Shown one piece after another: positions 11,872-43,451 of a stretch of 64,000 bases of DNA (within the stretch, counting starts at the first letter, position 1; each line of letters starts with the position of its first letter). The notes under the pieces were generated by a model. It ran no database searches. It had not been told where the DNA came from and was given only the letters and a program-made list of their open reading frames with translations. Made by a program: the position numbers and the translations under genes. The DNA is taken from assembly GCF_000403645.1 (NCBI RefSeq), contig NC_021313.1, positions 1,569,014-1,633,013 of the forward strand. Direction: 5' to 3'. The DNA comes from Salinarchaeum sp. Harcht-Bsk1. Its GTDB lineage: Archaea; Halobacteriota; Halobacteria; Halobacteriales; Salinarchaeaceae.

Positions 11872-12329
11872 CGAAAGCCCCCGGCCGCTCGTGCCCGCTC
11901 ACTCGCTGCGCGCGGCCTCGCTATCGCTCGGCCGTGCTACCGTCGTGACCGAACACGAGCGGTCGGCCCCTTTCAGTCCCGCCCGCCTCACACCTCCCCA
12001 GCCTTCTGCGCTGCTCACTCAGTCGCTGACGCTCCCTCGCTCCGCTGCTCGGCCCTCGCACGATGTCTGCGATTGGCTGCTCGCCCGCTTCGGGGCTCGC
12101 AGCCACCGTCGGAGCAAGCTCCGACGAGGTTCGCCTCGCGCTGCTCGGCTCACCATCGCGAGCGCGCGCCGGCGTGGTCCACGTGGTATAGCGCACTTCG
12201 GAAAACCATCCGGGCGGGACTGGAAGGGGCCGACCGCTCGCCGATTGAAACGAAGCAAGCACTGGACCGAGCGGAGCGAGGGAAGCGCGCAGCGAGTTAG
12301 AATCGGCGAGCGGGAGGGGGCTTCCAAGG
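11872..12329. repeat. dispersed palindromic element, copy A
   Basis: A noncoding block of about 458 bp lies between thrC and the TrmB-type regulator. Its ends are CGAAAGCCCCC on the left and GGGGGCTTCCAAGG on the right. Inside, 29-nt inverted arms lie at 11956-11984 and 12212-12240; they begin CGAGCGGTCGGCCCCTT on the left and pair with one mismatch. The core between them carries CCTCCCCAGCCTTCTGCGCT and a hairpin GTCGGAGC-AA-GCTCCGAC (12108-12125). The same blocks recur in copies B, C and D. The long open frames crossing it are arginine-rich and not conserved in frame. Confidence 0.9.
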
Positions 12330-12379
12330 CGGTCGTTGGTGTGCAATCGACGATAGAGGATTGCAAATTAAGCCAACTC

Positions 12380-26521: not shown

Positions 26522-26935
26522 CGAAAGCCCCCGAGCGCTCGAGGGCTGCGGCTCGCTGCGCTCCTCAGTTCGCAGTGCTCCTTGCGGTGCTTACTTCGCC
26601 TCGCACCGTCGAGCGCTCGGCCCCTTTCGAAGCCCACCCAAACAGCCTCATACCTCCCCAGCCTTCTGCGCTACTCGCCCTCCGGGCTGCGTTGCTCGGC
26701 CCTCGCACGGTGTCGCGCGACTGGCTGCTCGCCCGCAAGGGGCTCGCAGCCGACGCGAGCGCGCGCCGGTGGGGCCAACCGGGGTTTCGCGAACCTCCCG
26801 AAGATCCACCGGGTGGGACTGGAAGGGGCCGACCGCTCGTCGATCGTAACGAAGCAAGCACTGCAGCGAGTGAGCACCGCGAACGAGCGAAGCGCGCAAC
26901 GAGTTAGGATCGACGAGCGGTCGGGGGCTTCCAAG
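26522..26935. repeat. dispersed palindromic element, copy B
   Basis: This copy of about 414 bp is oriented like copy A. Its ends are CGAAAGCCCCC and GGGGGCTTCCAAGG. The inner arms lie at 26610-26639 and 26811-26839; the left begins CGAGCGCTCGGCCCCTTTCG and the right ends GGGGCCGACCGCTCG. The core retains CCTCCCCAGCCTTCTGCGCT and GCTCGGCCCTCGCAC. In place of the long core of A it has a small hairpin GCCC-TCC-GGGC. It lies between divergent genes, the small helical gene and prs. Confidence 0.9.
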
Positions 26936-27046
26936 GCGTCTGCAGCGGTTTGGAAAGCGGCCCGTCTACAATAACCCGAACCCAGGACCGAACGATCTCC
27001 TCGCGGGACCGAAACACGTTTTCACGGGCCGAGCGCACCACGGACC

Positions 27047-29546: not shown

Positions 29547-31676
29547 TTACCGGCTCCGGGCGAACAGGAGGAGAGTGGCGCCCGCCAGCAGTGCGATCAG
29601 ACCGGTGGCGAGCGCGACAGGGGGAATCTCGTCGATCGACTCCAGCACGCTCCCCTCCTGAACGTCGAGCTGGATGGTGAGCGATCCCGCGGACACGTTG
29701 TGCCGACCGGCTCGGTCGAACCCGGTCGAGATCTCGACCGTGCGATTGGCACCGGGCGTCAGCTGCACGCGCTCGGTGCCGACGGGCTCGCCGTCGGCGA
29801 AGACGGTGACGTTCCCGTCGGCCGGTCTGCTCGTCGGGTTCGACACTGACATCCTGACGTCGACGGCGTCGCCGGTCGAGGGCGACCTGGGGCTCACCCG
29901 GAGTGACGTCACGACGGGATCGGCGGGCTCGCGAACCCGGACCGTGCGCGAGACGTCACCGACGACGATCCGAACGTCGCCAGCCGTTCCGAAACGGTGG
30001 GAGAGGGAGACGGTCGTCGTCTCGCCCGGTTCGAGACTGCCGGACGAGACTGCCCGCTCGCTGCCACCGACGAACAACGTCGACCGGTACTGGCCGGAAA
30101 CGTTGCCGACGTTCGCGACCTCGACCTCCGCCGCGACGGCCTCGCCCACGACGGTCGTCTCGGGCAGTTCGCCGTCGCGGTAGGGACCGATCACGGACAG
30201 CGCCGGCTCCGAGACCACGCGATAGTCGAAGCGGGGAAGGTCGCTGCCAAAGAGCCGGCTGTGAGTCGTCCGGTCCCAGGTCGAGGGCGTGGCATCGGTC
30301 CGGGTGTAGGCGCTGACGAACTCGCGGACCGACTCGTCGCCGAGCCGTTCGGCCGCTGCTTCGAGGTCGTCGGCTCTGAACGTCTCCGCGCTGTTCCAGT
30401 CCGACATGATCGACTGGAAGGTCTCCGAGCCGTTGCTCGCAACGCGGAGTTCGCGATCGATCGCCCCGACGACGAGCGCCCCTTTCTCGTACTCGGCGTC
30501 GGTGTCCGCCCAGGTCGATCGGTCCGTGAGGACGGCGTCGGTCGCGGGCCGCATGGTGCCCCGTTCGAGCACGTTCCGGAAGGTCGCGTAGTCGATCCGC
30601 CCCTCCTCGAGACTCAGCAGCGCGGCGTAGTAGTCCGCGCTTCCCTCGACGAGCCAGTGGGCGTCGTCAGCGACGGCGTCGCCGTCGACAGTGTCGGCGT
30701 CGCGGTACTGCCGCGTGTGGACGTACTCGTGGACCCAGACGTTGACGGCCGCGTCGACGGGCTGGTCTGCCGCAACGCGGGTGTCCGCGCCGATCGCGAG
30801 CCCCGGCGGCCCCCAGTCGAACTCGCCGGTCGGTGCCGCGATCAGCACGACCTCCTGGTTGCGATTACCGAAGCGAAGACGATCGCTCGCGTACGCGACG
30901 GAGTCGAGGATCTCCGTGGGCGCCGAGGCCGGGTCGGCAGCGTCGGGCACGACGAGCGTGAGAACCTCGCCGCCGACGGTCCGGGATCGCGTCGAATGCG
31001 GCCCGAGGAAGGCGAACCGCTTCCCAGCGTATCCCTCGCCGGCCGTGGTGAGCCGGTACTCGAGCCCGGGGTTCTCGAAGCGGTAGTTCCACTGGGTGCT
31101 CGTCTGGGGACGCGTGACGATCGCCCACTCGCCCGTCCCGCCGACGAAGCGCTGATCTGGGCCCTCTGCCCGGAAGCTTTCGGTGACGGGGTGCCGGATC
31201 GTGACCGTCCCGCCGCCGCCCGACTCGTCCCACTCGAAGGTCCCGTCGTTTCGGGTGAACCCGTCGGTACCCACGACGTCGTACTGCCCCTGTGCGATCG
31301 AGAACGTGAGCGAACCGACCTCGTCGGGAATCTCGTAGGTGATCCGGGCCTCGACGGTGTCCGGCTGTGCGGGCAGCAGGTCGTACTCGACCCGCTCGAC
31401 GATCGGATCCGACGACTGCGCTGCGCTGGCGTTCGCGATCGAGGTGCTCTCGCCCACCTCGCTCGTCGACAGTGCGCCACCCGCATCGAGGCTCGACGCG
31501 GTCGCGGCGTCGGACGCTGGCCGAACCGGCGTCGGCGGGCCGGCGTCGGGTCCACCGGCGATGCCGGCGACTGGAGCGCCGGCCGTCGTGCCGACGGCCA
31601 GCCCACCGACCAGCGCCATCGTCAGGAGACAGAGGGCTAACAAGCGCCTATCGAGGGACTCGGCGCGCCGCTGCAT
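29547..31676 (-). CDS. secreted, membrane-anchored HEYVH zinc peptidase
   Basis: The 709-residue protein has an N-terminal signal (LLALCLLTMALVGGLAVGTT, about residues 11-30). An N-terminal beta domain comes next, then WVHEYVHTRQ with its zinc glutamate in HWLVEGSADYYA. Two Ig-like/CARDB-type domains follow (about 480-660, including VEVANVGNVSGQYRSTLFV and VRMSVSNPTSRPADGNVTVF). It ends with a membrane helix VALATGLIALLAGATLLLFA and RSR. It probably acts outside the cell, anchored in the membrane. The substrate is unknown. It is tandem with the shorter paralogue. Confidence 0.85.
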   Translation of the reverse strand: MQRRAESLDRRLLALCLLTMALVGGLAVGTTAGAPVAGIAGGPDAGPPTPVRPASDAATASSLDAGGALSTSEVGESTSIANASAAQSSDPIVERVEYDLLPAQPDTVEARITYEIPDEVGSLTFSIAQGQYDVVGTDGFTRNDGTFEWDESGGGGTVTIRHPVTESFRAEGPDQRFVGGTGEWAIVTRPQTSTQWNYRFENPGLEYRLTTAGEGYAGKRFAFLGPHSTRSRTVGGEVLTLVVPDAADPASAPTEILDSVAYASDRLRFGNRNQEVVLIAAPTGEFDWGPPGLAIGADTRVAADQPVDAAVNVWVHEYVHTRQYRDADTVDGDAVADDAHWLVEGSADYYAALLSLEEGRIDYATFRNVLERGTMRPATDAVLTDRSTWADTDAEYEKGALVVGAIDRELRVASNGSETFQSIMSDWNSAETFRADDLEAAAERLGDESVREFVSAYTRTDATPSTWDRTTHSRLFGSDLPRFDYRVVSEPALSVIGPYRDGELPETTVVGEAVAAEVEVANVGNVSGQYRSTLFVGGSERAVSSGSLEPGETTTVSLSHRFGTAGDVRIVVGDVSRTVRVREPADPVVTSLRVSPRSPSTGDAVDVRMSVSNPTSRPADGNVTVFADGEPVGTERVQLTPGANRTVEISTGFDRAGRHNVSAGSLTIQLDVQEGSVLESIDEIPPVALATGLIALLAGATLLLFARSR

Positions 31677-31700
31677 TCGTCGTGTCTGGGTAGGCGACGG

Positions 31701-31709
31701 CTATAACCG
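31701..31709 (-). promoter_or_regulatory. TATA-like box of the secreted peptidase
   Basis: On the minus strand the sequence CGGTTATAG is centred about 28 bases before the ATG at 31676, which fits a leaderless transcript. Confidence 0.55.
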
Positions 31710-31731
31710 CACCGCCACCACCTTTTTGCCT

Positions 31732-31802
31732 CCCACCGTTTTCGAGGAGCGGTCTCCTCGGTCGCTTCGCTCCCTCCGTCGACCGCTCTCCAAAAACGTG
31801 GG
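31732..31802. terminator. long inverted repeat between ileS and the peptidase
   Basis: CCCACCGTTTTCGAGGAGCG with GTC (31732-31754) pairs with GACCGCTCTCC-AAAAACGTGGG (31781-31802), leaving a short hairpin-rich loop with CGGTCGCTTCGCTCCC. On the ileS transcript a T6 run lies just before it and a pyrimidine-poor stretch after. It may end ileS transcription or stabilise its 3' end. Confidence 0.5.
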
Positions 31803-31867
31803 CGAAAAAACCGCACCGCATCCCAGTGGTGGCGACGTCGCTGCAATCAGACGGGCGTGTGAGTGGG

Positions 31868-34800
31868 CTACTCCGCCGCCCCAGCCGCCAGCGGCGCGAT
31901 CGCGATTTCGACCGTCACACCCTCGACCTCCCACTCCTTCCGGTGGCCGTCCTCGACGACACCGGTCGAGTCCGCGCGAACTTCCTCGGCGATCAGGTCG
32001 TCGTGGTCGGCGACCAGGTCCGCCACGCGGTCGTCCGCGATCGCGTACTCGAGCCGGATCGGCTCCTCGACGTCGAGTTCCATCTCTTTCCGCATCTCCT
32101 GCACCCGGCGGATGACCTCGCGAGCGTAGCCCTCGCTCTCGATGTCGTCGTCGAGCGTGGTGTCGACGTAGACGACGCCGAGCTCCTCGCCCTCGTCGAC
32201 GATCGGCGTGCCGGAGACGTCGTCGGGGGACTCGGTGACGGGGTCGATCATCGCCTCGGTGAGTTCGTCGGCGGACTCGAGGACGTCGCCGGCGACGAGC
32301 GCGTCGGCGAAGGCGTCGACGGTCGGCTCCTCGACGCGGGCCTCGTTGAGCGCCGTCATGACCTCGTGGGCGCGGTCGCCGAAGGCGGGACCGAGTTCGC
32401 CCATGTCGGCGTCGGCGCTGTACTGGAGTTCGCCCCACTCGGTTTCGGCGTCGAGCAGTTCGATCTCGCGAGCGTTGAGGCGGTCGGCGAGCAGGTTTCG
32501 GTGGCGGTCGATGGCGTCGTACACCGCGGCGTCGTCCGGCGCGACGACCACGCGGCTGACCGGCCAGCGAAGCTTGCGCTCGGCCTGCTGTCGGGCGTTC
32601 GAGCCAGCCTCCTCGACCTCGCGGAGGACGTCGAGGTCCGCTTCGAGCTGCTCGTCGACCCAGCGCTCCGCGGGTTCGGGGTAGTCGAGCATGTGGACCG
32701 TCGGGTGGCCCTCGTCGCCGGTGAGCTGGTCGTAGATCTCGTCGGTGAGGTAAGGTGCGAACGGGGCGAGCATCGCGACGACCTGGTGGAGCGCGTAGGT
32801 CAGCGTCTCGTAGGCCGCCTGCTTCTCCGGGCTGTCGGCCTCGTCCCACATCCGCTCGCGGACGACCTGGACGTAGAACCGCGAGAGGTCCTCGACGACG
32901 AACTCGCGGACGGCCTCGACGGCCTCGTCCTGCCGGAAGTCGTCCCAGGCGGCCTGGGCGTCCGCGGCGGTCGACTGGAGGCGGGCGAGCAGCCAGCGAT
33001 CGATCGTGGTGAGCGCGCCCTGCTCATCGAGGTCGGCGAGCGCGTCGAGGTCGTAGCTCGCGGGGTCGTAGCCGTCGAGTTCCATGTACGGCAGCGGGAA
33101 CCGGAACACGTTCCAGAGGATGTTGAGGTCCCGCTGCATCGTCTCGGTCCCCTCCCAGGAGAAGCGCATGTCCTCGCCCTGCGGATTGACCGAGAGCAGG
33201 AACATCCGCATCGGGTCGGCGCCGTGCTTCTCGATGACCTCGCCGGGCTCGACGGTGATCCCCTTGGACTTGCTCATGCCGCGGCCGTCGGGCATGTTCG
33301 CGTAGCCGTGCATCAGCACCTCCTCGTAGGGGATCTCGCCGAGGGCGGCGGTGCCCATCCCCAGCTGTGACCAGAACCAGCCCCGCGTCTGGTCGTGGGC
33401 CTCCATGATGAGGTCGGCGGGCCAGAGTTCCTCGAACGCCTCCGTGTTGGAGGGGTAGCCGATGGTGCCCCAGGTCGCGACCGAGGAGTCGAGCCAGACG
33501 TCGAACACGTCGGGGACGCGCTCGTAGGTCGTGCCATTTTCGGTGATGGTGAGGTCGTCGACGGTGCCCTTGTGGAGGTCGACGGTCTCGGGGTCGACGT
33601 CCTGGTCGACGCGCTCGGCGAGTTCCTCGCGGTCGCCGATCACGATCGCGTCGTCCATCGACCCGTTCCAGTCGTCGCCGCCGTCTCGCGGGCTCTGCCC
33701 GCTCGACTCGTCCGAGGCGCTTCGCGCCTCGCTCGGCAGCCAGATCGGGATCGGGATGCCCCAGTAGCGCTGCCGGGAGACGTTCCAGTCCGGCGCCTCC
33801 TCCACGAAGTCCCGGAAGCGGTTATCCCGGGCCCACTGGGGATGCCACTCGCTGTCCTCGATGTTGTCGAGGAGTTCGTCCTTGATGTCCGTGATCGTGA
33901 TGAACCACTGGTCGGTGACGATCTGGAGGATGCCGGTGTCACACCGCCAGCAGTGGCCGTAGCTGTGGGTGGTCGTACCGTGCGCGAGCAGGGCGCCGTC
34001 GTCCTGGAGGTCCGCGACGATGTCCGCGTCAGCGTCCTTGACGAACTCGCCGGCATACTCCCCCGCGGCCGATCCGTAGACGCCGTCGCCGCCGACGGGA
34101 CAGAAGATGTCGAGGCCGAGTTCGCGGCCGCGCTCGAAGTCCTCCTCACCGTGGCCCGGCGCGGAGTGGACGAGGCCGGTCCGGTCGACCTCGACGTAGT
34201 CCGCGGCGTAGACCTGCAGCGCGTCCTCGCCGCTGGGGTGGTCGGGCACCTCGTCGTCGAGGGGATGCTCGTACTCCCAGCCGAGCATGTCCTCGCCAGA
34301 CAGGGTCTTCGCGACCTCGTAGTCGTCGTAGCGACCCTCCTTGAGGACCTCCTCGACGCAGTCTTCGGCGACGTAGAGGCGCTCCTCCTCACCGTCCTTC
34401 GTCGCGTCGACGGCGGCGTACTCCACCTCCGGATCGACGGCGACGAAGGTGTTCGCCGGGATCGTCCACGGCGTCGTCGTCCAGATGACGAGGCTGCCCT
34501 CGCGGTCGCTGAGGTCGAACTTCACGTAGATCGAGGGGTCCTCGACCTGCTCGTACTCGACCTCGTTGTTGGCGATCGCGGTCTCACACCGGGGACACTG
34601 CGAGATGGAGCGCTGGCCCTGCTCGACGAGGCCGCGCTCGTTGGCGCGTGAAAAGCCCCACCAGGCGGCCTCCATGTACTCCGGATCGACCGTCTTGTAC
34701 GGGTCGTCCCAGTCCATCCAGACGCCGAAGGACTGGAAGTCCTCCTGGAGGCCGTCGAGTTGCTCCTCGGCGAAGGCCTTGCACTCCTCGATGAACGCCT

Positions 34801-35146
34801 CCTCGCCGAAGTTCTCGATGTCCTTCTTGTTCTCGAAGTCCAGCTTCTCCTCGACCTTCGTCTCGATCGGCAGCCCGTGCATGTCGTAGCCCGGCCGGTC
34901 CGTCACGTCGTAGCCGGACATCCGCAAGTAGCGGATGTAGGCGTCCTTCAGCGTCTTGTTCCAGGTCGTGCCCATGTGGGCCGCCCCGGAGGTGTACGGC
35001 GGACCGTCGACGAAGAAGAAGTCCTCGCCGTCGGCGCGGTGCTCGACCGTTCGTTCGTAGGCGTTTCGTTCGTCCCAGCGATCCGCCACGCGATCCTCGA
35101 CCGCGTGGGGATCGTACTGGTCGGAGAGGTCCTCGGCGTCGCTCAT
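31868..35146 (-). CDS. ileS: isoleucyl-tRNA synthetase
   Basis: The 1092-residue class I synthetase charges tRNA-Ile. The HIGH-equivalent AAHMG lies near residue 57, the editing domain follows, and the KMSKS-equivalent GMSKSKG lies near residue 620. The anticodon-binding domain has WLLARLQSTAADAQAAWDDF. After IPIPIWLPS near residue 470, a 16- to 18-residue low-complexity piece EARSASDESSGQSPRDGGDD interrupts the catalytic region. It is encoded by two perfect DNA hairpins and is absent from the conserved family pattern. A TTTATC box precedes the start. Confidence 0.97.
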   Translation of the reverse strand: MSDAEDLSDQYDPHAVEDRVADRWDERNAYERTVEHRADGEDFFFVDGPPYTSGAAHMGTTWNKTLKDAYIRYLRMSGYDVTDRPGYDMHGLPIETKVEEKLDFENKKDIENFGEEAFIEECKAFAEEQLDGLQEDFQSFGVWMDWDDPYKTVDPEYMEAAWWGFSRANERGLVEQGQRSISQCPRCETAIANNEVEYEQVEDPSIYVKFDLSDREGSLVIWTTTPWTIPANTFVAVDPEVEYAAVDATKDGEEERLYVAEDCVEEVLKEGRYDDYEVAKTLSGEDMLGWEYEHPLDDEVPDHPSGEDALQVYAADYVEVDRTGLVHSAPGHGEEDFERGRELGLDIFCPVGGDGVYGSAAGEYAGEFVKDADADIVADLQDDGALLAHGTTTHSYGHCWRCDTGILQIVTDQWFITITDIKDELLDNIEDSEWHPQWARDNRFRDFVEEAPDWNVSRQRYWGIPIPIWLPSEARSASDESSGQSPRDGGDDWNGSMDDAIVIGDREELAERVDQDVDPETVDLHKGTVDDLTITENGTTYERVPDVFDVWLDSSVATWGTIGYPSNTEAFEELWPADLIMEAHDQTRGWFWSQLGMGTAALGEIPYEEVLMHGYANMPDGRGMSKSKGITVEPGEVIEKHGADPMRMFLLSVNPQGEDMRFSWEGTETMQRDLNILWNVFRFPLPYMELDGYDPASYDLDALADLDEQGALTTIDRWLLARLQSTAADAQAAWDDFRQDEAVEAVREFVVEDLSRFYVQVVRERMWDEADSPEKQAAYETLTYALHQVVAMLAPFAPYLTDEIYDQLTGDEGHPTVHMLDYPEPAERWVDEQLEADLDVLREVEEAGSNARQQAERKLRWPVSRVVVAPDDAAVYDAIDRHRNLLADRLNAREIELLDAETEWGELQYSADADMGELGPAFGDRAHEVMTALNEARVEEPTVDAFADALVAGDVLESADELTEAMIDPVTESPDDVSGTPIVDEGEELGVVYVDTTLDDDIESEGYAREVIRRVQEMRKEMELDVEEPIRLEYAIADDRVADLVADHDDLIAEEVRADSTGVVEDGHRKEWEVEGVTVEIAIAPLAAGAAE
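33682..33733. repeat. palindromic insertion module inside ileS
   Basis: Two perfect hairpins in the coding strand read (minus strand) CGAGGCG-CGAAG-CGCCTCG and GCGGGC-AGA-GCCCGC, separated by GACGAGTCGA. The same pieces, in the same frame, occur in the HNH-like gene at 4877-4955. The encoded peptide is EARSAS-DE-SSGQSPR. It lies in a loop after the conserved IPIPIW strand. Confidence 0.85.
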
Positions 35147-35167
35147 ACGGGTACGGTGCCCCTCCGG

Positions 35168-35175
35168 GGATAAAG
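35168..35175 (-). promoter_or_regulatory. TATA-like box of ileS
   Basis: CTTTATCC on the minus strand is centred about 26 bases before the ileS ATG. This is the common haloarchaeal spacing for a leaderless transcript. Confidence 0.65.
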
Positions 35176-35258
35176 GACAATCGGAGTGTTGGTGGAGAGT
35201 GGCATGGAGATGAGGTGGGTACGGTCGGTTGGGGTTGCGACCGCATCAGCAGCCGCCT

Positions 35259-35762
35259 TCGGAAGCCCCCTCCCGCTCGCGGCACCTCACTCGTTGCGCT
35301 CCTCGCTCGCAATCGCTCGCTGTGGTGCTTACGTCGTGACGTGCCGCGAGCGGTCGGCCTCTTCCGGAGCCCCACCCGGAGAATATGTCGGATCTCCCGA
35401 TACCTCGGCGGGGTGCAGTGGCGCGCGTTTCGCGGCGGACCGGAGGTCCGTCGCGTAGCGTGCGAGGGACGACCGAGCGTAGTCCTCGTGAGCGAAGCGA
35501 ACGAGGGCCCGGAAGTCGCAGCCCGCGAGCGAAGCGAGCAGGAACGTCTTGCGGCGCGAGGGAGGAGGTTGGGGAGGACTGAGGTGCGGTTGCGGGGGGA
35601 CTTCGAAAGGGGCCGGGCGTTGACGGGCTACGCCCGTCTGCTCGGGAGAGCTTCGCTCTCCCGGCGGTTGGTCGTTCCCGGGCGACGTAAGCACCGCAGG
35701 CGAGCGTCGCGAAGCCGAGGAGGCAGTGAGCCCCGGAATGTCGAGCGTCCGGGGGCTTTCGG
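35259..35762. repeat. dispersed palindromic element, copy C
   Basis: The longest and most diverged copy is about 504 bp and is oriented opposite to A and B. Its ends are TCGGAAGCCCCCTCCCGCTC and GGGGGCTTTCGG. The left arm CGAGCGGTCGGCCTCTTCCG (35347-35377) faces a degenerate right arm with CGAAAGGGGCCGGGCG (35594-35622). Extra mini-hairpins are inserted: CGGACC-GGA-GGTCCG (35436-35450), GACGGGC-TAC-GCCCGTC (35622-35638) and CGGGAGAGC-TTC-GCTCTCCCG (35643-35663). It lies about 110 bp upstream of ileS. Confidence 0.8.
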
Positions 35763-35815
35763 GGATCCGAAAGCCGAGGAGTCAACCCAGTGAATACTGG
35801 AACCGAACTCGAATC

Positions 35816-37267
35816 TCAGTCGTCAGCGGGCTCCTCGGGGTGCACGCCCTCAGAATCCACGAACTCGGGCAGATCGGGAACGGAACTCGTGTCGTGGGTC
35901 CCCGCAGGCGGCAGATTCACCTCCGCAGCGGCAGAGGCGTCCAGATCGGTCCGATTCTCGATCGCGTCCATCTCCCCGTCCGCGACGTCCCGCGCGTCCT
36001 GATCGATCCGCATCGAGCAGAACTCGACGCCGCACATCGAGCAGAAGCGCGCTTCCTTGTAGTTGTCACCGGGCAATGTCTGGTCGTGGTAGTCCTGCGC
36101 GCGCTTCGGGTCGAGGGCGAGGTCGAACTGCCGGCGCCAGTCGAACTCGTAGCGGGCCTCCGAGAGGGCGTCGTCCCAGTCTCTGGCACCAGGAAGCCCG
36201 TTCGCGACGTCCGCCGCGTGCGCGGCGATCCGATACGCCGCGAGCCCCTCGCGGACGTCCTCCTCGTCGGGCAATCCGAGGTGCTCCTTCGGCGTGACGT
36301 AGCAGAGCATTGCCGCGCCGGCCCGCCCCGCTTCCGTCGCGCCGATAGCACTCGTGACGTGGTCGTATCCCGGCGCGACGTCGGTGACCAGCGGGCCGAG
36401 GACGTAGAACGGCGCGCCGTCGCAGACCTCCTGCTGGCGCTCGACGTTGTCGGCGATCTCGTGCATCGGGACGTGGCCGGGGCCCTCGACCATCACTTGC
36501 ACGCCGTGGTCCCACGCCGTCCGCGTGAGCTCGCCGAGCGTCTCCAGCTCCGCGAACTGCGCCTCGTCGCTGGCGTCGGCCAAACTGCCTGGCCGCAGCC
36601 CGTCTCCGAGCGAGAACGTCACGTCGTGCTCGGCGAAAATCTCGCAAATCTCCTCGAACTTCGCGTAGAGCGGATTCTGCATCCCGTTCTCCTCGATCCA
36701 CTGCGCGAGGATCGAGCCGCCGCGCGAGACGATCCCGGTCGTGCGGCCGTCGGTGAGCGGGAGGTGCTCCATCAGCACGCCCGCGTGGATCGTCATGTAG
36801 TCGACGCCCTGCTCGGCGTGCTTCTCGATCACGTCGAGGAGGAGTTCGTGGGTCATCTCCTCGGGACTGCCGGCCTCCTTTACCGCCTCGTAGATCGGAA
36901 CGGTCCCGACGGGCACCGGTGAGTACTCGACGTTCGTCTCGCGGATCTCGTCGAGGTTGGAGCCGGTCGAGAGGTCCATCACCGTGTCCGCACCGTAGTG
37001 GACGGCGGTGTGGAGCTTGCGGAGTTCGCCCTGGAGGTCGCTCGTCGTCTCCGAGTTCCCGATGTTGGCGTTGACCTTCGTCGAAAATTCGCGGCCGATG
37101 ATCATCGGGTCGAGCGAGTCGTGGCCGTGGTTGCTCGGGATGACGGCCTGGCCCTCGGCGACCTGCTCGCGGACGAACTCGGGATCGCGGTTCTCGCGCT
37201 CGGCGACGCGCTCCATCGCCGGTGTACTCTCGCCGTCGCGGGCACGCTGCAGCTGGGTTCGGGGCAT
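35816..37267 (-). CDS. thiC: phosphomethylpyrimidine synthase
   Basis: The 483-residue radical-SAM enzyme turns aminoimidazole ribotide into the HMP phosphate half of thiamine. The family cluster-binding motif [11 protein letters not shown] (C-x2-C-x4-C) lies near residue 410. Conserved blocks include [54 protein letters not shown] and [11 protein letters not shown]. No TPP riboswitch is visible, and the promoter is so close to the ATG that there is almost no leader. Control is more likely at the direct repeats over the promoter. Confidence 0.97.
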
Positions 37268-42882: not shown

Positions 42883-43359
42883 TTGGAAGCCCCCTCCCGC
42901 TCGCCCGATTACACTCGCTGCGCGCTTCACTCAGTCGCTAGCGCTCCCTCGCTGCAGTGCTTGCTTCGTCTAAACGGGCGAGCGGTCGGCCCCTTCCAGT
43001 CCCACCCCGTTGATTTTCCACAGGTTCGCGAAACTTCGGTGGATCACGTCGGCGCGCGCTAACCGATGGCTGCGAGCCCCGAAACGGGCGAGCAGCCAAT
43101 CGCAGACATCGTGCGAGGGCCGAGCGATGCTGGACCGGAGGTCCAGCAAGTCTGAGGCTTCGCCTCAGGCAACGCAGCGGTGAGCGAAGCGAACCCGAGC
43201 AGCGCAGAAGGTTGGGGAGGTATGAGGCGTCTGGGTGGGCATCGAAAGGGGCCGATCGCTCCGGGAAGCCCGGCGGAGTAAGCACTGGAATGAGCGAACG
43301 GAGTGAGCGAATGAAGCGCGCAACGAGCCGCGCGACTGGAGCGATCGGGGGCTTTCGAA
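42883..43359. repeat. dispersed palindromic element, copy D
   Basis: This copy of about 477 bp is oriented opposite to A and B. Its left end TTGGAAGCCCCCTCCCGCTC is almost the reverse complement of the right end of A. The inner arms are at 42979-43007 (CGAGCGGTCGGCCCCTTCCA...) and 43233-43261. The core, read in reverse, keeps the CCTCCCCAGCCTTCTGCGCT-type block and the CAATCGCAGACATCGTGCGA block of A. It bears two inserted hairpins, CTGGACC-GGA-GGTCCAG (43130-43146) and CTGAGGC-TTC-GCCTCAG (43152-43168). It lies between divergent genes. Confidence 0.88.
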
Positions 43360-43451
43360 GGTCGCCGAAACCCAACTTCTGATTCGCTCATACTCCTCCC
43401 CGTTCTGCCGACCCCCACAGAACCAAATGGCCACTCGCCGACGGAATCGCC

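Follow-up and report, generated by a model that had tools for sequence, protein, structure and literature searches.

A 48-bp in-frame hairpin module in the ileS gene of Salinarchaeum sp. Harcht-Bsk1 probably belongs to a family of protein-coding palindromic elements spread through haloarchaea

The ileS gene of Salinarchaeum sp. Harcht-Bsk1 raises the question of why an essential tRNA synthetase should carry, in frame, the same short hairpins as an unrelated gene of the same genome. The window, that is, the whole stretch of 64,000 nucleotides that was analysed (G000:C1:1569014-1633013), belongs to a 3.26-Mb one-contig genome. A previous sequence-only reading had placed a hairpin module at 33682-33733, in the loop following the IPIPIW strand of IleS and in the frame used in a gene at 4542-5210 that it named HNH-like, and had attributed this to a spreading DNA module and not to protein homology. 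In the open reading frame listing, ileS extends from 31868 to 35146 on the minus strand and encodes 1092 amino acids; PDB isoleucine--tRNA ligases were matched with E values down to 6.2e-172. The second gene was assigned by Pfam to DUF7097 (PF23382). The features of both copies are as follows:

33686 to 33733, minus strand: ileS copy of the element, 48 bp with two hairpins, 16 codons, SEARSASDESSGQSPR, residues 472-487; matched by the covariance model, its 48 bp being absent from the congener G001
33713 to 33731, minus strand: hairpin A of the ileS copy, CGAGGCGC-GAA-GCGCCTCG, 8-bp stem, loop GAA, a perfect inverted repeat
33688 to 33702, minus strand: hairpin C of the ileS copy, GCGGGC-AGA-GCCCGC, 6-bp stem, loop AGA
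33678 to 33685, minus strand: tail GACGGCGG, 3' of the ileS element, kept in the congener without the 48 bp (window compared with L131)
4542 to 5210, plus strand: DUF7097 (PF23382) gene, host of the second copy, Pfam E 7.3e-79 in two stretches
4875 to 4957, plus strand: second copy, with three hairpins (A, B and C), read in frame within the DUF7097 gene; covariance-model matches
4877 to 4895, plus strand: hairpin A of the second copy, letter for letter as in ileS
4910 to 4928, plus strand: hairpin B of the second copy, CGCGGAAC-GCA-GTTCCGCG, between A and C
about 4939 to 4953, plus strand: hairpin C of the second copy, letter for letter as in ileS

The sense codons of the ileS element (33733 to 33686) are AGC GAG GCG CGA AGC GCC TCG GAC GAG TCG AGC GGG CAG AGC CCG CGA, which translate as S-EARSASDESSGQSPR and stand immediately C-terminal to GIPIPIWLP, so that the proposed module and its place after the IPIPIW strand were both confirmed. 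The covariance model matched this copy at 33733-33684 with 72.7 bits (E 9.8e-17, searched 64 kb), and the second copy at 4908-4957 (E 1.7e-10) with a neighbouring match at 4875-4907 (E 9.5e-8, both searched 64 kb). In the latter, hairpin B is a stem variant of hairpin A, to which the model aligns it. The hairpin A 17-mer of the ileS copy is identical to 4878-4894, and when this 17-mer (at most one mismatch) and the hairpin C 21-mer (at most three mismatches) were searched across the genome, both matched at two places only, with zero matches for the reversed-pattern controls of either search; these two are the only strong copies in the genome. Chance hairpins were rejected on the basis of these two-place matches and reversed controls, the covariance-model E values and the random-position frames given below. 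Both copies are read in the common frame EARSAS...SSGQSPR, and since IleRS and DUF7097 are different families having nothing in common except the insert, the claim of one frame in two unrelated proteins held and protein homology of the hosts was rejected. No Rfam family was found in 31500-36000. The copy in the DUF7097 gene is also present in the congener G001 (L026).

Other repeats were observed in the same window. At 3108-3332, a 25-bp unit (GCGGCGGTTGCAGAACGGAAGCGGT) is repeated in tandem, with about seven copies in register, and a second palindrome-rich repeat family (GGAAGCCCCC...CGCTCG with partners) was found at 11873-12331, 26523-26938, 35261-35700 and 42885-43362, one copy of which sits between ileS and the next gene. 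Perfect hairpins of at least 8 bp numbered 47 in window 1-64000 versus 9-27 in 20 Markov-chain controls, about twice as many.

Whether the insert is an ordinary part of IleS was addressed with a 131-residue IleS query, which matched all 106 order-level genomes; from 30 loci, 73 additional genomes and three repeats, 101 rows were parsed, representing 98 distinct genomes, with five unparsed loci and three genomes outside this sample. Within it, the element occupies the loop in the window's genome only (1/98), and the commonest haloarchaeal loop has 12 residues and starts LPEDW or TPEDW. The sequence-only reading had staked its claim on the peptide not being present in most haloarchaeal IleS proteins, and this is what was observed; the element as an ordinary IleS feature was therefore rejected. 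Beyond the 98 genomes, the IleS of Halorhabdus salina (L051) carries the element at the same place as the window, while two further genomes (L075 and L108) carry it elsewhere in the protein, at about the position of residue 253 in the window's IleS. A palindrome of at least 6 bp was present in the loop of 11 of the 20 genomes whose loop has 18 residues or more (the window's included) versus 3 of the 78 with shorter loops, which suggests that this loop is a spot repeatedly taking up hairpin DNA, in a comparison made without a formal test and in which long loops have more room. Other palindrome-coded inserts were seen in the same loop at L128, L129, L130, L132 and L146, for example NGGGEAA (GGCGGCGAAGCCGCC) and the ADSSA/ADESA types.

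Sites without the element provide a second line of evidence. Where the window has IWLPSEARSASDESSGQSPRDGGDDW, the congener G001 reads IWLPDGGDDW, and the difference is exactly 48 bp. The DGG of G001 resembles the tail of the element and the commonest loops start LPEDW or TPEDW, so that DGG may be that tail and G001 may have lost the element; judged from these sequences, loss in G001 would be as possible as gain in the lineage of the window. In another genome (G057), a gene that we take, from reading its protein, to be dihydroorotase-like is a net 48 bp longer than in congeners on account of the element (10/10 genomes matched; nine loci read, G057 included; L435 outside the pattern). A third gene, in G071, presumably oxidoreductase-like from its protein, shows a net 51-bp difference from the short-loop congeners, and other congeners have other inserts there. 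Neither ileS nor the genes of G057 and G071 showed an evident target-site duplication, which along with terminal inverted repeats would mark a MITE, but their flanks vary.

The element is confined to haloarchaea, where it is widespread. An exact 20-mer was scanned against a collection of 84,980 species and found in 89 stretches; among the 80 loci listed, 79 are titled haloarchaea, and the 80th, an uncultured proteobacterium MAG, is without the usual hairpin C and without coding support. Thirty-two gapless elements were used to build a covariance model, which at E <= 0.01 was positive in 89 of 98 order-level genomes, with 1 to 49 matches per positive genome and at least 1,246 matches altogether, at most 61 candidates being scored per genome, so that this number is a lower bound. 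In a phylum sample of 147 genomes, 25 were matched, 23 within the order and two outside it; the latter two, out of about 121 out-of-order genomes, gave a single weak match apiece (E 0.0036 and 0.0044), about the chance level at this threshold. The exact 20-mer was absent from viral contigs, and carriage by viruses is thus unsupported. Some copies depart from the usual arrangement: at L093 (6349-7221) two copies are in tandem, and at L012, L031, L032 and L100 the copies have neither coding flanks nor long ORFs and precede a common T-rich motif (GGCTTTTG... or GTGCTTTTC...), as though they belonged to a longer repeat between genes.

The hosts are functionally diverse. A set of 30 host proteins, from 29 of the 80 exact-20-mer loci together with the DUF7097 gene of the window, was submitted to Pfam, and a family at E <= 1e-6 was found in all of them. 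They include proteins of translation and RNA metabolism (class I LysRS, MetRS, a tRNA-synt_1 protein, the IleRS of L075, TruD and GatB/GatE), proteins acting on DNA (UvrA, a DNA-polymerase-beta-thumb/PHP protein and an HhH-GPD glycosylase) and, further, CobN, SufBD, NAD kinase, TrpA, PALP, acyl-CoA dehydrogenase, a P-type ATPase and peptidases. The same insertion site is used across genera, most clearly in TrpA (L070, L071, L084, L096 and L114); the TrpA gene of L096 (5786-6826) has a three-hairpin insert, and SASDESSGQSPR is one example of an insert peptide. An AlphaFold2 model of TrpA from L084, built with five other sequences, reached a mean pLDDT of 84.9, with a mostly confident fold in which the insert residues 106-117 fall below a pLDDT of 50. 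The insert thus forms a disordered loop in this model, which supports its surface exposure in TrpA. The IleS model, obtained from four sequences, had a mean pLDDT of 45.5 and was unusable for judging the exposure of the loop, and in alignments with solved IleRS sequences the insert stretch either pairs with a shorter, poorly matching segment or sits between two aligned pieces.

The peptide encoded by the element has the consensus S-E-A-R-S-A-S-[DE]-x-S-S-G-x-x-P-R, and its frame is constant where both flanks are readable. Frames were called with a codon model trained on the loci, each flank being called separately and the element left out. Both flanks agreed in 57 of the 80 exact-20-mer loci, and in 57/57 the frame was EARSAS, sense. 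The lower-ranked 100 of 120 listed covariance-model rows without a locus gave agreeing flanks in 69 cases (EARSAS frame 69/69), one readable flank in 17 (11 left-only), all in the EARSAS frame, discordant flanks in 3 and no call in 11, with no antisense call from both flanks or one flank among these 100 hits. A pattern that ignores hairpin A yielded 30 loci, 19 of which had both flanks readable, all 19 in the EARSAS frame; of the remainder, 6 had one flank in that frame, 3 gave no call, 1 was discordant, and at L399 the right flank only was readable and antisense. As a control, 370 of 800 random positions had agreeing flanks, distributed over the six frames as 84, 68, 57, 56, 53 and 52. Additionally, both-flank coding calls were obtained for 69-71% of the elements versus 46% of random positions in the same loci, and the hits without coding flanks (11/100, of which not every one was confirmed to be intergenic) are fewer than would be expected from random insertion.

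Stop codons do not account for this restriction, since four of the five other frames are stop-free in 32 aligned elements. In those 32 elements, the frame in use has a net charge of -0.88, whereas four of the five other frames are basic (+3.9 to +5.0). Across the set of 64 elements, the mean charge of the frame used is +0.31, still below that of any other frame. Minus frame 0, with a net charge of +0.47, is more hydrophobic and is open in 32/32, and it is absent from every both-flank call; being near neutral, its absence is not fully explained.

An invariant frame wherever both flanks are readable, together with a hydrophilic peptide that is predicted to be disordered in the modelled host, is what would be expected if the peptide itself were selected, as a flexible polar linker that arose many times and whose DNA was made alike by codon bias. 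However, the hairpin is conserved, and not just the peptide. Elements are usually arranged as [ACG]GCG-hairpin A-GGA-about 4 nt-TCGA-hairpin C-GAGA, and among the 32 aligned elements hairpin C has as its inner pair C-G in 17, G-C in 9, A-U in 2, U-A in 2 and other in 2. This pair is formed by two third codon positions, GGC occurring with GAG, GGT with GAA, GGG with AGC and GGA with AGT. When it was left free in the search pattern, 101 of 103 hits were paired, versus a shuffle mean of 49 and a maximum of 68; with a spacer one base shorter, the 103 hits fell to 3. In hairpin A, which was unused in that search, 92.5% of cells were paired versus 77.1% when shuffled (maximum 84.2%; 30 loci, many different stems). 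Double-change cells numbered 81 versus 18.5 shuffled in 64 model hits, a set found with a structure model and hence leaning towards structure. As the stems covary, synonymous third positions included, a shared peptide alone is insufficient as an explanation; both stem arms change together around a fixed spacer, and selection on the peptide, already disfavoured by these results, is hardly credible.

Covarying stems could also arise in another way. Template switching during replication, which corrects quasipalindromes, would produce compensatory changes without selection. On this basis, the palindromes might be made or perfected locally, with no copying between genes, and haloarchaeal DNA is generally hairpin-rich, as the 47 stems of the window illustrate. 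What tells against this explanation is that hundreds of unrelated genes share one fixed two-hairpin layout, spacer and flanks included, which calls for a common source. As the sole origin of the module, template switching is thus highly improbable, although it could keep the stems perfect after insertion.

The claim of the sequence-only reading that a DNA module had spread, and not a protein, was in turn supported by the single occurrence among 98 IleS loops, the congener lacking exactly the 48 bp, the unrelated Pfam hosts and the covariation of the stems. The ileS insert is, in our judgement, quite probably one copy of a haloarchaea-wide, RPE-like family of protein-coding palindromes of about 48 bp with two hairpins, which spread as DNA into unrelated genes and was kept in one tolerated frame. 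The mobility of the element is what we infer from its distribution. At the DNA level, the hairpin module would have been copied in a transposition-like way into numerous unrelated genes by some single-strand or hairpin-recognising activity. Purifying selection would then act against the other frames, in which basic or hydrophobic peptides, or a broken protein, would result, leaving copies nearly always in the sense orientation and in the single frame whose product is a hydrophilic, near-neutral to acidic, disordered loop. Because stem pairing is conserved while the stem sequence changes, whatever is copied or retained includes the hairpin itself, as DNA or mRNA.

Two observations fit poorly with simple neutral insertion, namely the small number of copies without coding flanks and the unusually conserved third positions, so that the hairpin may have a role as RNA or DNA. 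Between orthologues, 88/93 third positions in the part of the element not covered by the search 20-mer were identical, versus 1673/2183 in the flanks (Fisher p 4e-6), in eight pairs chosen from ten, L045/L068 and L010/L033 having been dropped as aligning badly and probably not orthologous. This excess, as well as the strict sense orientation, the compensatory change at synonymous positions and the genic excess relative to random positions, would agree with a module that is a functional nucleic-acid structure, an mRNA or ssDNA hairpin pair involved in RNA processing, translation pausing or replication, selected in the sense orientation and with the peptide as a by-product. However, the hosts are functionally unrelated and the presence of the element is patchy, as in the IleS loops; moreover, the orthologue pairs were picked because both matched the hairpin, so that decayed copies would be missed, and gene conversion or repeated insertion would yield the same third-position excess. 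We consider an account by function alone to be distinctly unlikely. A broader proposal would be a group-wide haloarchaeal coding palindrome whose hairpins are under nucleic-acid constraint once inserted, whose entry or survival occurs on the sense strand in one frame only, acting at the transcript or at transcription-exposed single strands, which continually remodels surface loops of essential enzymes and is moved by an undescribed activity. We put it forward tentatively, as an idea with a modest chance of being right.

The source of the copying activity was sought among Y1 (HUH) transposases, which might move in trans a minimal IS605-derived PATE or a REP-like element. The small size and the hairpins of the element would suit such an origin, and palindrome elements without a transposase have a haloarchaeal precedent in the available part of PMC3119063. 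Additionally, hairpins like hairpin A were found near the tnpB 3' end in 2 of 30 Y1 loci, as weak matches (E 5e-4 and 0.006). However, Y1 transposase genes are present in 56 of 98 genomes, the window's genome having none; the copy number of the element is uncorrelated with them (rho -0.013), and 9 of the 20 genomes with at least 20 copies have no such gene. The hairpins that recur next to Y1/TnpB genes of haloarchaea (30 Y1 loci, one of them not oriented) also have 4-nt TTTA/TTCA loops and other stems, and the consensus of the element contains no GTAG or CGTC tag. A Y1/RAYT or IS605 origin is therefore not supported, given the copy numbers and the differing hairpins at Y1 loci, and we regard it as very unlikely. 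A different two-hairpin motif with 3-nt loops was observed beside or inside Y1/TnpB genes at L364, L366, L369, L370, L376 and L377, possibly another family of small mobile repeats.

If the favoured reading of a spreading coding palindrome is true across free-living haloarchaea, insertion of hairpin DNA would be a general route by which the surface loops of essential proteins are lengthened, an idea made testable by haloarchaea with laboratory genetics. For annotators and phylogeneticists, near-identical stretches of 16 residues in unrelated haloarchaeal proteins would then indicate neither homology nor a functional motif.

No report of a haloarchaeal coding palindrome was found in the literature, in which subscription journals were partially covered. 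Methanocaldococcus jannaschii is an archaeon but not a haloarchaeon. Its coding repeats (Suyama et al. 2005), known here from the citing papers PMC2229807 and PMC2996958 in their available parts, are archaeal and fused in frame into protein genes, so that archaea were already known to have coding repeats. In haloarchaea, the available text of PMC3119063 ties the PATEs of Haloquadratum to IS605-type ends, describes SMRs as often targeting PATEs or IS605-type elements, and gives 80 bp as its shortest length (HqIRS41). These, too, are haloarchaeal mobile repeats without a transposase and with palindromes or inverted repeats, from which the present element differs in its size of about 48 bp and, as far as that text goes, in its in-frame coding. 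REP/BIME sequences with RAYT likewise consist of short hairpins repeated in a genome; according to the part of PMC3733652 at hand, they are typically extragenic and carry GTAG or CGTC tags, whereas the haloarchaeal consensus is AGCG-hairpin-GGA, 69 of the 100 hits are intragenic by both flanks, and no association with a Y1-type transposase was found.

Protein-coding palindromes are reported from Rickettsia, Wolbachia and one methanogen (PMC10969869, PMC3767692, PMC2229807 and PMC2996958, as far as their available sections extend). In the same sources, Rickettsia palindromic elements (RPE), which the haloarchaeal element resembles most, and their Wolbachia counterparts are palindromic DNA in frame in unrelated, often essential genes, with a conserved peptide and with orthologues without the insert; different families can strike the same loop, and an RPE occurs in the isoleucyl-tRNA synthetase of Rickettsia (PMC3767692). 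The haloarchaeal element shares the palindromic stem-loops, the in-frame insertion in unrelated genes and the orthologues lacking the insert. However, RPE are bacterial and about 105-150 bp long in the available parts of PMC2229807 and PMC10969869, while the haloarchaeal element measures 48 bp in ileS and in the G057 gene and about 83 bp in the DUF7097 copy, and 79 of the 80 listed exact matches come from haloarchaea and not from Rickettsia or Wolbachia. RPE copies also lie in intergenic regions; of the haloarchaeal hits, 11 of 100 have no coding flanks and may be intergenic. Its two small hairpins, its haloarchaeal spread and the single frame observed also set the haloarchaeal element apart from RPE as these are described there. 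By analogy, the haloarchaeal element appears to work like an RPE, but it is no member of that group, being shorter, built of two small hairpins and haloarchaeal.
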